Below are positions 11,387 to 16,238 of a stretch of 45,934 bases of DNA, piece after piece. The notes under the pieces are model-generated. The model saw only the letters and a program-made list of their open reading frames with translations, was not told the origin of the DNA and searched no databases. The stretch spans positions 1 through 45,934 of the forward strand of contig JAFYAT010000020.1 in assembly GCA_017540585.1 (NCBI GenBank), given 5' to 3'. A program made the translations under genes and the position numbers. This stretch comes from Bacteroidaceae bacterium (lineage in GTDB: Bacteria > Bacteroidota > Bacteroidia > Bacteroidales > Bacteroidaceae). How positions within the stretch are numbered: position 1 is the first letter of the stretch; each line of letters starts with the position of its first letter.

Positions 11387-12382
11387 TTATGGCACCTCAA
11401 CCTTGTTGATAATCTTACTTACGATTTCCTCACTTGTCACGTTACTTGCCTCTGCCTCGTATGTAAGACCAATACGATGACGGAGCACATCGTGAGCAAC
11501 AGCACGTACATCCTCTGGGATGACGTATCCTCTGTGCTTGATGAATGCGTATGCACGAGCAGCAAGTGCAAGGTTGATAGAAGCACGTGGAGAACCACCG
11601 AAACCAATAAGTCCCTTGAGTTCCTTGAGGTTGTACTTCTCAGGATAACGAGTTGCAAACACGATGTCTGCAATATACTGTTCAATCTTCTCGTCGAGAT
11701 AAACCTGACGAACAACATCACGAGCCTCCTCGATTTCCTTTGTTGTCATGATAGGACGGATGACAGTCTTCTCGCCAGTGATGTTCTGACGGATAATCTT
11801 CTTCTCCTCCTCAAGCTTTGGATAGTCGATGACAACCTTGAGCATGAAACGGTCAACCTGTGCCTCTGGAAGAGGATAAGTACCTTCCTGCTCAATTGGG
11901 TTCTGAGTAGCCAATACGAGGAATGGCTTAGGAAGTTCGTATGTATTTGTACTGATAGTAACCTGACGCTCCTGCATTGCCTCAAGAAGTGCTGACTGAA
12001 CCTTAGCTGGAGCACGGTTAATCTCATCTGCAAGTACGAAGTTTGCGAATACTGGACCTTTCTTAGCAACGAACTCACCATCCTTCTGGCTATATATCAT
12101 AGTACCGATAACATCGGCAGGAAGAAGGTCTGGAGTAAACTGGATACGGCTGAACTGAGCATCGATAAGTGAAGAAAGAGTCTTGATAGCCTTTGTCTTA
12201 GCAAGACCAGGTACACCTTCGAGGAGTACGTGTCCATCAGACAAAAGACCGATAAGAAGTGATTCGACAAGATGCTTCTGACCAATGATAGCCTGATCCA
12301 TTCCTGTCATAATATTTGTAACGAAAGAGCTATGTCTTTCGATTCGCTCATTTAACTCGCGAATATCAATAGCGTCTGCCAT
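11387..12382 (-). CDS. moxR: MoxR-type AAA+ ATPase
   Basis: The 331-residue product starts MADAIDIREL at the ATG at 12382; the longer reading begins at a TTG with no supporting features and is rejected. Walker A is G56-V-P-G-L-A-K62-T63, Walker B ends in D119-E120, and the MoxR box NRAPAKVQSALLEAMQER follows, then a sensor segment (LATQNPIEQEGTYPLPEAQVDRF). MoxR ATPases act as chaperones that activate VWA-domain partner complexes, here BatA/BatB. It is the first gene of a run of about 9 kb in one direction. A TAAATTTG box 48 bp upstream may start the operon. Confidence 0.92.
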   Translation of the reverse strand: MADAIDIRELNERIERHSSFVTNIMTGMDQAIIGQKHLVESLLIGLLSDGHVLLEGVPGLAKTKAIKTLSSLIDAQFSRIQFTPDLLPADVIGTMIYSQKDGEFVAKKGPVFANFVLADEINRAPAKVQSALLEAMQERQVTISTNTYELPKPFLVLATQNPIEQEGTYPLPEAQVDRFMLKVVIDYPKLEEEKKIIRQNITGEKTVIRPIMTTKEIEEARDVVRQVYLDEKIEQYIADIVFATRYPEKYNLKELKGLIGFGGSPRASINLALAARAYAFIKHRGYVIPEDVRAVAHDVLRHRIGLTYEAEASNVTSEEIVSKIINKVEVP

Positions 12383-12429
12383 AATGTTTTTACGATTTTG
12401 GTTTCGTTTGTAGTTTTTAAATTTGGGCA

Positions 12430-12437
12430 CAAATTTA
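12430..12437 (-). promoter_or_regulatory. Possible -7 box of the moxR-bat operon
   Basis: The minus strand reads TAAATTTG, a full match to TAnnTTTG, 48 bp before the moxR ATG. The nearest TTTG upstream is only 14 bp away instead of about 20, so the -33 element is not convincing. Confidence 0.4.
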
Positions 12438-12550
12438 ACACTTTCATTCAACAAACTTTCTTAAAATATATTAAAAGGTTAGATTACACCCATATTTTAA
12501 GACATTTTAACCTGCAGTAATCAAAGTGTCAATTCACATTCCCCCGCTAA

Positions 12551-12594: not shown

Positions 12595-12690
12595 TTTGCA
12601 GATGACAGAAAGAAAGCAGACATTCGGAACAGAATAACATAATGACACAATATATAAAAGAAACTCCACCACTCTATTATAGCCATCCAC

Positions 12691-12763
12691 TTATGTTTCC
12701 CTTACATTTCTGTACAAATCCGTACAGAAACAAACAGAAAACTAAGAGAAACATAAGGGAAAC
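12691..12763. repeat. Nested palindrome
   Basis: An inner inverted repeat TTTCTGTAC (12707-12715) / GTACAGAAA (12722-12730) with a 6-bp spacer sits inside an outer pair GTTTCCCTTA (12695-12704) / TAAGGGAAAC (12754-12763). CTTATGTTTC overlapping the left outer arm is also complementary to GAAACATAAG overlapping the right one, so two registers of pairing compete. Confidence 0.75.
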
Positions 12764-12813
12764 ACGTTATTTTGATTGATACACAACAAGCGTATAGTAT
12801 CCGAAAGTATATA

Positions 12814-12852
12814 ATTTACGCCTCGTAAACATGATAGTTACGAGGCGTAAAT
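12814..12852. terminator. Perfect 15-bp hairpin downstream of the HU-LysM gene
   Basis: ATTTACGCCTCGTAA (12814-12828) pairs perfectly with 12838-12852 across a 9-base loop. It lies 64 bp beyond the stop of the minus-strand HU-LysM gene and probably ends that transcript. There is no clear T tract on either side, so a role as an RNA 3' stabiliser or operator is also possible. Confidence 0.6.
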
Positions 12853-12915
12853 AGCATAGTTATAAACAAAAAATATAATTATTATAGTTTAATAGAATCC
12901 TTTTCATTCCCATTG

Positions 12916-14547
12916 CTATGGTAGAATCACTTCTGTTCCATAAGGGACATTATCTGGATCCTTGAATTTGTTTGCACGTATTATCGCTCTTACAGAGTCC
13001 TTGGTGCCATAGAACTTCCGAGATACTTTTGTAAGGGTTTCATCCCTTTGGAGTATATACGTCTTTGGCTTAGCCGTTGACTTGTTGTCAGCAGCCTTGC
13101 TCTTAGCTGGCTCTGTCGCTGTTGTCTCAGCAGGAACATTAGTATTTGACTGAATACTGTCCGTCTCTACCTTAGGTTTGACAACTGGAGCTTGCTTCTT
13201 GACAGGCGTTGCATGATTCTTTGGCTCAACAGGAAGCTGCTTGAGTTCTGTCTTTTCCTTGTCAGAATGAGCCTTGTACATAACAACAGAAACGCCAAAG
13301 ATAAGTATTACCAATATTGGAGTAAGAATCCATATCCAATAATGTCCGTCATCCTTCTTCTTGCGCACTGGCTCAGGAGTAGCGGCAGACTTGTCCGAAA
13401 GCAGTCTGTTGAGTGCTTCTGCTTGTGCATCCTTATTTTCCTCTGCACCTTCAGCAGTTACGTCTTCTTGCTTAACCTCAGCATCAGTTGACTGTACTGC
13501 TTCTTCCGCAGCAGACTTAGTGTCTTCTTCCGCAGGTGCAACATCTGTTGATTCTTCCTGTTCGGAAGAAGGTTCTTCAGTTGTTGCTTCAAGATTAACA
13601 GTTACGTTTTCATCCTCTGCAGTTTCAACTACAGAAGGAGTCTCAACTGTCTCCAATGATTCTTCAACAGGTTCAACTGGAGTCTGTGCAACTTCCTCAG
13701 CCTTCTGACCTTCGTCAGCAGTCTCAACTGCACTTTCTTCCTTAGCTACAGATGGTATATCCTCATAAATAGTAAGATTCTCCTTAGCCACAGACTCAGC
13801 AACCATTGCAGGTACCGGCTCAGCCTCTGTCTCTGGAGTCTGCTCTTCTTCCGCACATTCTGGCACCATGCTTTTCTCCATCTTATCAAGGAGTGCTTCA
13901 AGACGGAGGACTTCACGATGTGCCTCTTTAGCAGCTATGAGCTTACGCTCTGCATCCGCACGAGCCTGTTCAAGTTCGAGACGAATCTCCTCTACACTCT
14001 CAGGAGTACAGATAAGCATATCTATGCCAGAGAACTCATCCTCCTGCACCTCCACCTTCTCAGGAACCTCAACCATATTGACTTCTGCCTCTACGGCATC
14101 AATAGGTTCCTCATCCTCGGATGTAGTAATATCTTCGCTAACGTCTTCAGTTTCATCATCCACCTCTGACGTCTCTTCAATGTCTGTTTCGTCTGTATCG
14201 TTGGAAACATCCGTTTCCTCGTCATCAGCAACTACATCCTCACGAACATCAGGCATATCGCTGACAAGATTAGAGACAAGCAAACCATCTTCTGGTATAA
14301 AATTTACTTTCTTATATCCAGCTATGACAATACGCTCGCCATTGGTTACATTTATACTTTCTCTACTTGCAACCTCAACCACACGGAACGTACCAAGACC
14401 ATCAATCTTCACGCTCTCATCATTAGAGAGGCCATCGACAACCGTATCAAAGAATGCTCTGGCAAGTTGCTCAGCCACCTTCTTTGGTACACCACACGCT
14501 CTTGAAAACGATTCTGCAACGGATTGCAATGTTACTTTATCACTCAT
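12916..14547 (-). CDS. HU-domain / transmembrane / LysM fusion protein
   Basis: The 543-residue product combines three parts. Residues 1 to about 100 form an HU/IHF-like DNA-binding domain (LQSVAESFSRACGVPKKVAE at the start, IDGLGTFRVVEVASRE in the middle). Residues of about 105-395 are a very acidic, Glu/Asp/Ser/Thr-rich probably disordered region with one helical, coiled-coil-like stretch (about 185-230). A single membrane helix lies at about 403-425, and a LysM peptidoglycan-binding domain at about 496-543 (YILQRDETLTKVSRKFYGTK onward). Positive residues just before the helix (RKKKDD) predict the HU part inside and LysM outside. The HU arm reads NVTNGE where most HU proteins have N-P-x-T-G, so the DNA-bending proline is missing. 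It lies 40 bp downstream of a stand-alone HU gene. A tether between DNA and cell wall is inference. Confidence 0.85.
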   Translation of the reverse strand: MSDKVTLQSVAESFSRACGVPKKVAEQLARAFFDTVVDGLSNDESVKIDGLGTFRVVEVASRESINVTNGERIVIAGYKKVNFIPEDGLLVSNLVSDMPDVREDVVADDEETDVSNDTDETDIEETSEVDDETEDVSEDITTSEDEEPIDAVEAEVNMVEVPEKVEVQEDEFSGIDMLICTPESVEEIRLELEQARADAERKLIAAKEAHREVLRLEALLDKMEKSMVPECAEEEQTPETEAEPVPAMVAESVAKENLTIYEDIPSVAKEESAVETADEGQKAEEVAQTPVEPVEESLETVETPSVVETAEDENVTVNLEATTEEPSSEQEESTDVAPAEEDTKSAAEEAVQSTDAEVKQEDVTAEGAEENKDAQAEALNRLLSDKSAATPEPVRKKKDDGHYWIWILTPILVILIFGVSVVMYKAHSDKEKTELKQLPVEPKNHATPVKKQAPVVKPKVETDSIQSNTNVPAETTATEPAKSKAADNKSTAKPKTYILQRDETLTKVSRKFYGTKDSVRAIIRANKFKDPDNVPYGTEVILP

Positions 14548-14587: not shown

Positions 14588-14863
14588 TCACGAGTTAATC
14601 TTATCCTTGAGGGTTGCACTCATCTTGAAATTGAGCGTAACCTTCTTTGGGATAATCTTGTATGACTTAGTCGTAGGATTATACATCTTACGCTCTGCCT
14701 TTTCACGAGACTCGAAGTTGCCAAATCCCTGGACAGACACTACCCTACCCGATGCCAGCTCACGTGCAAAGGCACCAATGAACTGCGCTACCATCGGCTC
14801 AAGCTGTTCTGCCGTCATACCGGTCTTTTCAGACAAGCTCTTTATGAATTCAGTATTTGTCAT
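14588..14863 (-). CDS. HU-family DNA-binding protein
   Basis: The 91-residue protein covers a full HU/IHF domain: an N-terminal helical dimer part (TEFIKSLSEKTGMTAEQLEP), the GFGNFESREK turn, and the arm with the conserved N-P pair in YNPTTKSYKIIP. Such proteins bind and bend DNA as dimers and organise the nucleoid. It sits between rimO (70 bp upstream) and the HU-LysM fusion (40 bp downstream). It may form heterodimers with the fusion's HU domain, which would recruit the fusion to DNA, but this is inference. Confidence 0.9.
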   Translation of the reverse strand: MTNTEFIKSLSEKTGMTAEQLEPMVAQFIGAFARELASGRVVSVQGFGNFESREKAERKMYNPTTKSYKIIPKKVTLNFKMSATLKDKINS

Positions 14864-14933: not shown

Positions 14934-16238
14934 TTAATTCTTTTTTTTCTCCGCATATAGGTCGAAGTCGTCGCTGTCCGTGATAGTCATATCGTAGAAA
15001 CAACCTGTACGGAGTATTCCGTTTGCCACAGGAACAAGTACCTCTGGGTCAACCTCAGGAGAGTCAAACTCGGTACGTCCCACGTAATATTCGCCTTCCT
15101 TACGGTCAATAATCACCTTCATAGTCGTACCGACCTTCTTTGCCTGAACCTCAGCAGAGATACCCTGCTGGATGTCCATTAACTCACTAAGGCGTGCCTG
15201 CTTGACTTCGTGTGGAATATCGTCCTTGAAGTTCTTGGCTGCGTATGTTCCTTCTTCCTCTGAATAGGCGAAAGCGCCCATACGCTCAAACTTTGCCCAA
15301 CGGACAAATTCCTTTAGTTCTTCAAATTCCTTCTCACCCTCGCCTGGGAAACCGACCATAAGTGTAGTGCGAAGATGAATGCCAGGAACCTCACGACGGA
15401 GCATCTCTATAAGCTCGTAAGTATCCTCCTTAGTCACATGACGTTGCATATTGGTAAGCACATTTGTGCTGACATGCTGAAGGGCGATGTCAAGATACTT
15501 GCACACATTCTTCCTCTCACGCATCACACGAAGCAAATCCATAGGGAAGTTCTTAGGATAAGCGTAATGAAGACGAATCCACTTCACGCCATCAATGTCG
15601 GAGATACGCTCCACAAGTTCAGCTATCTTCTGCTTGCCATAGAGGTCAACGCCATAGTATGTAAGCTCCTGTGCAATAATCTGAAACTCCTTCACGCCCT
15701 CGCTGACGAGGTGCTTGACCTCCTCAACGATATCCTCCATAGGACGGCTCTGGTGCTTACCCGTAATGATTGGTATGGCACAATAAGCACAATGGCGGTC
15801 ACATCCCTCAGATATCTTGAGATAAGCATAATGCTTAGGAGTGGTTATACGACGTTCAAACTGGTACTCTGTCTGGTACGTCTTGCCAAGGTCCTTGAGG
15901 AGCTCTGTCCAATTGAACTTGCCATAGAACTTGTCAACCTGAGGAATCTCCTTGCCAAGTTCCTTGAAGAAACGCTCTGAAAGACATCCCATGACATATA
16001 CTTCACGAATCTTGCCCTCTTCCTTTGCCTGACAGAGTTCGAGAATCATATTGATACTCTCTTCCTGCGCATCGGCAATGAAACCACAAGTATTGACAAC
16101 AGCAATCTCACCCTGAGGGTTCTCGCTGTCATGTGTCACCTTGTAGCCGTTAAGTTCCAACTGACGGATAAGTCTTTCCGAGTCAACAAGGTTCTTGGAA
16201 CATCCAAGAGTGATTATATCTATTGTATTCTTTCGCAC
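14934..16238 (-). CDS. rimO: Ribosomal protein S12 methylthiotransferase RimO
   Basis: The 434-residue radical-SAM enzyme adds a methylthio group to a conserved Asp of ribosomal protein S12. The N-terminal methylthiotransferase domain has the three cluster cysteines C13 (TLGCSKNLVDSE), C51 and C85. The radical-SAM motif is C146-(3)-C150-(2)-C153. A C-terminal TRAM domain (from about 365) follows, containing VIIDRKEGEYYVGRTEFDSPEVD. The TLGCSKN start is diagnostic of RimO over MiaB. The length is normal. It lies 244 bp downstream of ftsY in the same direction. Confidence 0.95.
   Translation of the reverse strand: MRKNTIDIITLGCSKNLVDSERLIRQLELNGYKVTHDSENPQGEIAVVNTCGFIADAQEESINMILELCQAKEEGKIREVYVMGCLSERFFKELGKEIPQVDKFYGKFNWTELLKDLGKTYQTEYQFERRITTPKHYAYLKISEGCDRHCAYCAIPIITGKHQSRPMEDIVEEVKHLVSEGVKEFQIIAQELTYYGVDLYGKQKIAELVERISDIDGVKWIRLHYAYPKNFPMDLLRVMRERKNVCKYLDIALQHVSTNVLTNMQRHVTKEDTYELIEMLRREVPGIHLRTTLMVGFPGEGEKEFEELKEFVRWAKFERMGAFAYSEEEGTYAAKNFKDDIPHEVKQARLSELMDIQQGISAEVQAKKVGTTMKVIIDRKEGEYYVGRTEFDSPEVDPEVLVPVANGILRTGCFYDMTITDSDDFDLYAEKKKN

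Follow-up and report, generated by a model that had tools for sequence, protein, structure and literature searches.

How might a chromosome of the Bacteroidota be held in place at the cell envelope? The question is raised by a 45,934-nucleotide (nt) stretch of DNA, the whole of which is here called the window (GenBank assembly GCA_017540585.1, contig JAFYAT010000020.1, a Bacteroidaceae bacterium), which contains an open reading frame (ORF) for a 543-amino-acid (aa) protein made of an HU/IHF-like domain, a transmembrane (TM) helix and a LysM domain, next to a gene for a small HU protein. To our knowledge, chromosome positioning has been little studied in the Bacteroidota, and we know of few single proteins that could contact both DNA and peptidoglycan. 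The reading towards which we lean is that the two genes encode an HU/IHF-type heterodimer whose membrane-anchored subunit links DNA to peptidoglycan.

The layout of the 543-aa protein, HU followed by one membrane helix and LysM, had been proposed in a preliminary description made from the sequence alone, and was borne out by Pfam, hydropathy and structural modelling. For PF00216, whose cut-off is 22.4 bits, residues 10-87 score 56.2 (E 4.3e-15); residues 11-80 are modelled with a predicted local distance difference test (pLDDT) of 80-87, and the 35 Foldseek matches of this fold with E<=0.001 all bear HU/IHF-type titles. The membrane segment has a hydropathy of 2.68 and belongs to a helix modelled over residues 402-436. 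At the C-terminus, PF01476 (LysM) is matched by residues 497-543 at 18.2 bits, under its cut-off of 20.9; its modelled fold can be aligned with structures of LysM domains, and LysM is found at E<=0.01 (best 2.3e-9) in 23/23 members of alignment A1, which groups the window protein with 22 homologues from its genus. As modelled, this domain is thus a LysM fold rather than a Pfam-certified LysM member. PF00216 is matched at E<=0.01 by all 23 members of A1 and by all 30 of an order-wide alignment, of which only nine match LysM in Pfam at the same threshold, so LysM is more divergent beyond the genus. A chance ORF was set aside because 35 of the 36 genomes of the genus have a homologue, and a fusion artefact of a single assembly because the same layout occurs on many separate contigs.

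Between these domains, the preliminary description had seen about 290 acidic, probably disordered residues. For most of residues 91-160 pLDDT does fall below 50. The description is wrong for residues 161-230, a mid segment that is conserved as strongly as the HU domain (mean majority fraction in A1 of 0.78 for both and 0.79 for LysM, against 0.16-0.47 in the linkers and membrane helix) and for which a 42-residue helix (185-226) is predicted, with a pLDDT of 88-89 for residues 191-220.

Evidence that the 543-aa protein may not act alone comes from its gene neighbourhood. The HU gene that had been noted 40 base pairs (bp) upstream is indeed there, its stop codon lying at that distance from the start codon of the HU-TM-LysM gene, and the survey of such neighbours that had been called for in Bacteroidales gave a uniform answer. 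The counted set comprises 78 distinct ORFs (43 of 47 loci in a first homologue set, which are mostly close relatives and so not independent, 34 of 40 further regions, and the window). In 78/78 the same-strand gene directly upstream of the long one codes for a small HU protein; the gap between the stop of the former and the start codon of the latter has a median of 3 nt (range -11 to 144), with overlap in 34/78 and at most 50 nt in 77/78. A same-strand match near the pair is found in 56/78 for rimO and 53/78 for moxR, several loci ending before that point; the pair therefore holds together even where its outer neighbours change. Loci L084, L086, L087 and L089 were left out of the set for want of an ORF of at least 200 aa with an HU match, and L155-L160 as fused, armless or very divergent. 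Within it, six members do not match the genus LysM profile (L071, which is cut by the contig end, L090, L137, L143, L151 and L153), and in L126 the best hydropathy segment reaches 1.53, under threshold. A separate alignment, A3, holds 16 of 18 in-frame loci (L064 and L068 left out).

In what follows, the HU domain of the long protein is called the tethered HU and the small upstream protein the partner HU. The former probably faces the cytoplasm, as the preliminary description had proposed. Lysine plus arginine residues, counted in the 12 residues either side of the best 19-residue hydrophobic window, are in excess on the HU side in 62/78 proteins, in deficit in seven and equal in nine; the window protein, with four before the helix and three after, is nearly balanced and says little alone. 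Because of this bias and the lack of an apparent N-terminal signal sequence (by eye), HU is likely inside and LysM outside, and a periplasmic HU domain was set aside on the same two grounds.

The arms of the two HU domains differ in a regular manner. A proline at the arm tip that intercalates into DNA is typical, though not universal, in the HU/IHF superfamily. The arm of the window protein (NVTNGE) had been noted to lack it, and this proves to be a lasting trait: the corresponding column of the tethered HU holds valine in 71 of the 78 proteins, isoleucine in five, glutamate in one and proline in one, while in the partner it holds proline in 78/78, as NP or HP in 77. In the window itself, the tethered HU has valine and its partner proline. 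The sole counted tethered HU with an arm proline (L153:3564-4601, RNPRTG) has a partner with LP instead of NP. Outside the order, in family f142, whose pairs are likewise adjacent genes, proline is present in both subunits at 25/25 loci (NP in all 25 tethered domains; NP in 22 partners and SP in three). The simplest history would be that the ancestral pair had two proline arms and that most Bacteroidales lost one. Net charge is also unequal: in the window it is -2 for the tethered HU against +6 for its partner, with medians over the set of 0 (-6 to +11) and +4 (-3 to +12), the partner being higher in 63 cases and positive in 76/78.

That the two domains belong together is suggested by several further lines of evidence. 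In one member of the window's family (L155:3788-4858) a partner-type HU, a second, armless HU, a TM helix and LysM form a single ORF, in which Pfam finds two PF00216 stretches together with sub-threshold HU-CCDC81_bac_2 and LysM matches. Two very divergent chains (L156:3492-4862 and L157:3912-5231) have, by eye, the same HU-HU-TM-LysM order; their TM-LysM parts match A1 at E 4.1e-12 and 3.8e-7, respectively, and their HU parts give a sub-threshold Pfam match (18.4 bits) in the former and none in the latter. Elsewhere the genes stay separate and the tethered HU is armless, as in L159 (4304-4582 and 3207-4304) and L160 (4607-4948 and 3315-4607, its tethered HU reaching only 15.2 bits in Pfam), each with an upstream HU devoid of arm proline (DLSTG; the one in L160 recognized by eye), while L158 starts with an armless HU-like domain (25.1 bits) for which a simple look found no upstream HU. 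These fused and armless loci support the idea of two HU domains working together. A tree was built from 34 tethered HU domains, 34 partner domains and two free HU proteins of the window genome; a branch with 100/98 support splits its tethered from its partner domains, the inner order being poorly resolved on so few columns. A single-chain model of both HU domains, made without a control model, reached a predicted template-modelling score (pTM) of 0.75 and resembles single-chain IHF (scIHF2). A mirror-tree comparison on 16 of 36 eligible loci (after removal of near-copies, the window among them) gave a partial r of 0.42 between tethered and partner HU given rimO and moxR, against 0.18 for tethered HU with rimO and 0.16 for tethered HU with moxR under matching controls; none of 2000 permutations reached 0.42, although permutation breaks the phylogeny and this deserves little weight. 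Dimerization with the upstream HU, which the preliminary description had offered as one option, is thus supported by adjacency in 78/78, natural fusion, the tree and the tandem model. Architecture, gene pairing, arm asymmetry, separate clades and natural fusion are all legible in the sequences, while the fold of the heterodimer that the two genes would encode is a modelled one.

If so, the following scenario can be outlined. The small HU would be the soluble, basic, proline-armed subunit, and the 543-aa protein the second subunit, with valine replacing the intercalating proline. The latter would continue into an acidic tether that includes a predicted helix, cross the membrane once with its N-terminus inside, and end in a periplasmic LysM domain that should bind peptidoglycan. 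Such a complex could then hold chromosomal DNA near the inner membrane, fixed to the wall, and would do so without the sharp two-sided kink of IHF. In this scenario we infer that the pair binds DNA, that LysM binds peptidoglycan and that the complex acts as a tether, as we do for any part it may play in positioning the chromosome. A fuller version, put forward tentatively as a possibility, is that Bacteroidales have a dedicated two-gene chromosome-to-wall tether. Its HU heterodimer would be asymmetric, with only one of the two arms intercalating, and would form a parallel, split-gene counterpart of HU-CCDC81-SPOR proteins (see below); the loss of one arm proline would have tuned the complex from kinking DNA to holding it.

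What weighs against a DNA-binding heterodimer is that arms are lost or reduced in L155, L159 and L160 (and, by eye, in L156 and L157), which suggests that DNA binding was not kept everywhere. This leaves room for an alternative that we consider unlikely, though still to be reckoned with, namely that the HU pair has been repurposed, its domains dimerizing and binding proteins rather than DNA as an envelope scaffold; a scaffold-type role has reportedly been proposed for CCDC81-type HU domains. Against such a role speak an arm tip (RES.NV..G.R..I.GYKK) that is one of the best-conserved stretches within the genus, the NP or HP motif and the positive charge of nearly all partners, and the retention of proline in both subunits in f142. 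It is improbable that the protein is an envelope sensor, in which engagement of LysM would alter proteolysis or conformation close to the membrane and thereby release or activate the HU pair for gene regulation, since no protease site or partner was identified and the mid segment is present only in close relatives. Least probable of all is that the membrane HU acts alone or as a homodimer beside a general nucleoid protein co-transcribed by happenstance, for although HU is homodimeric in most bacterial species, as stated in a passage of PMC5683647, this would ill explain the invariant adjacency, separate clades, complementary arms and natural fusion, and a further HU with an NP arm (L031) is encoded at another place in the window genome.

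How widespread is this architecture? Of 61 genomes searched, the window's own among them, 46 gave a match. Within the same genus 35 of 36 did so, and among 24 genomes from elsewhere in the order 10 did, several of the latter with short HU ORFs only. Across 295 sampled genomes of the order, A1 has matches at E<=0.001 in 114, mostly to HU only or LysM only, and by hand count at least 38 (own genome included), falling in at least 15 families, have an HU-side match at E<=1.1e-17 in an ORF of more than 300 aa. The HU-TM-LysM architecture is thus widespread in Bacteroidales yet non-universal at the sensitivity used. In a sample of 395 genomes of the phylum, among the matches listed, strong long-ORF matches outside the order came from family f142 only, and most of the others were short HU ORFs. 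Nearly all named loci belong to metagenome assemblies labelled Bacteroidaceae, Prevotellaceae or Bacteroidales, with ruminants and horses as frequent sources. A contig titled Roseburia sp. (L089) codes for a homologue of the present Bacteroidales family (52% identity in the best segment) and is probably mis-binned.

The features of the locus are collected in the table. The HU-LysM gene and moxR are separated by a gap that contains two inverted repeats (12690-12757 and 12805-12861) with 24-nt arms that are 88% and 83% complementary, respectively, which could be terminators or a repeat element.

Table. Features of the HU-TM-LysM locus in the window, in window coordinates
Feature	Coordinates	Strand	Basis
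HU-TM-LysM protein, whole ORF including stop, 543 aa	12916..14547	-	ATG start, no internal stop
HU/IHF-like domain, residues 1-90, arm NVTNG without intercalating proline	14278..14547	-	PF00216, model, Foldseek
Acidic variable linker, residues 91-160, 31 D+E against 1 K+R	14068..14277	-	Alignment conservation; most pLDDT <50
Mid segment, residues 161-230, conserved and confined to close relatives; IDMLI.TPES followed by a long predicted helix (185-226)	13858..14067	-	Alignment, model
Variable linker, residues 231-401, acidic then juxtamembrane basic (RKKK)	13345..13857	-	Alignment conservation
Single transmembrane helix, about residues 402-424	13276..13344	-	Hydropathy, model
Predicted periplasmic linker, residues 425-494, 13 K+R, 9 D+E, 8 P	13066..13275	-	Model, alignment
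LysM domain, residues 495-543, reaching the very C-terminus	12919..13065	-	Pfam sub-cut-off, model, genus homologues
Partner HU gene, 91 aa, arm YNPTTK with proline kept	14588..14863	-	ORF, Pfam, arm alignment
rimO, upstream neighbour	14934..16238	-	Pfam/profile match
moxR-type AAA gene, downstream neighbour	11387..12454	-	Pfam match

If our reading is correct, this pair would provide a simple and testable physical link between DNA and wall, present in gut lineages, and its relatives would amount to a natural experiment on HU heterodimers with one, two or no intercalating prolines. No description of an HU-TM-LysM protein was found in the open-licence PMC literature, as judged by titles and abstract openings, which is not proof of absence. 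The family may nevertheless have been met before under another name, since HU_bacL, as far as the relevant passages of PMC5683647 go, is a Bacteroidetes-only clade of HU proteins whose long and highly charged C-terminal extension averages 238 residues, and whose N-termini are also longer, by 1 to 4 or by around 30 residues. HU_bacL probably includes the HU-TM-LysM family, which we set beside it by description only, and our reading may thus give a function to the long-charged-tail HU proteins of that 2017 paper. However, the word 'membrane' is absent from its main text, and a membrane helix, LysM or paired HU gene is unnamed in those passages (PMC5683647).

Other known systems share part of the design. 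The closest working analogue is HubP/FimV, described in passages of PMC8789113 as having a periplasmic LysM that is necessary and sufficient for polar targeting in HubP, one membrane helix, a long acidic cytosolic region and a link to ParA1 and the origin. The window protein shares with it a LysM domain, predicted to be periplasmic, a single membrane helix and a long acidic cytosolic region, and would likewise be linked to the chromosome. However, the order of the domains is opposite, HubP/FimV has a C-terminal TPR and contacts the chromosome via ParA1, and no HU is named in the same passages (PMC8789113); membership was rejected on a C-terminal LysM and no TPR match at E<=0.1 in the window protein. 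Rv3852 of Mycobacterium tuberculosis, a nucleoid-associated protein, is held in the membrane by a C-terminal helix and linked to cell-wall organization and growth, but the abstract of PMC8233713 mentions no LysM or HU domain, and the protein is restricted to M. tuberculosis and close relatives. As for IHF alpha/beta, both subunits are soluble and both have arm prolines. The window pair would, judging from the match of its tandem model to scIHF2, likewise be an HU-fold heterodimer of two distinct subunits, but one subunit is membrane-anchored and only one arm keeps its proline.

The nearest known design is encoded in the same genome, as a separate gene. The protein in question (L165:1321-2493), which comes directly after a small, SecG-like ORF (by eye), combines HU-CCDC81_bac_1, HU-CCDC81_bac_2 and SPOR, all over cut-off. 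SPOR is a peptidoglycan-binding kind of domain, and another 2017 paper, on HU clades, is reported to have proposed a role in chromosome partition for the HU-CCDC81 clade. Of 119 genomes sampled from the order, 113 match PF18175, 93 of them over cut-off, the weaker matches including ordinary short HU ORFs, and the partner HU of the window scores 14.6 bits against a cut-off of 35. The 543-aa protein matches neither PF18174 nor PF18175, nor SPOR, at E<=0.1, and membership in the HU-CCDC81_bac/SPOR group was rejected on these profiles and with a true member found elsewhere in the genome. What the two designs have in common is a pair of HU-type domains, a hydrophobic segment (1.74 at residues 226-244 in L165) and a C-terminal domain of the wall-binding kind; where they differ is that HU-CCDC81_bac/SPOR (PF18174, PF18175, PF05036) is a single gene with tandem HU domains and SPOR, whereas the window has two genes, HU domains of the PF00216 type and LysM.
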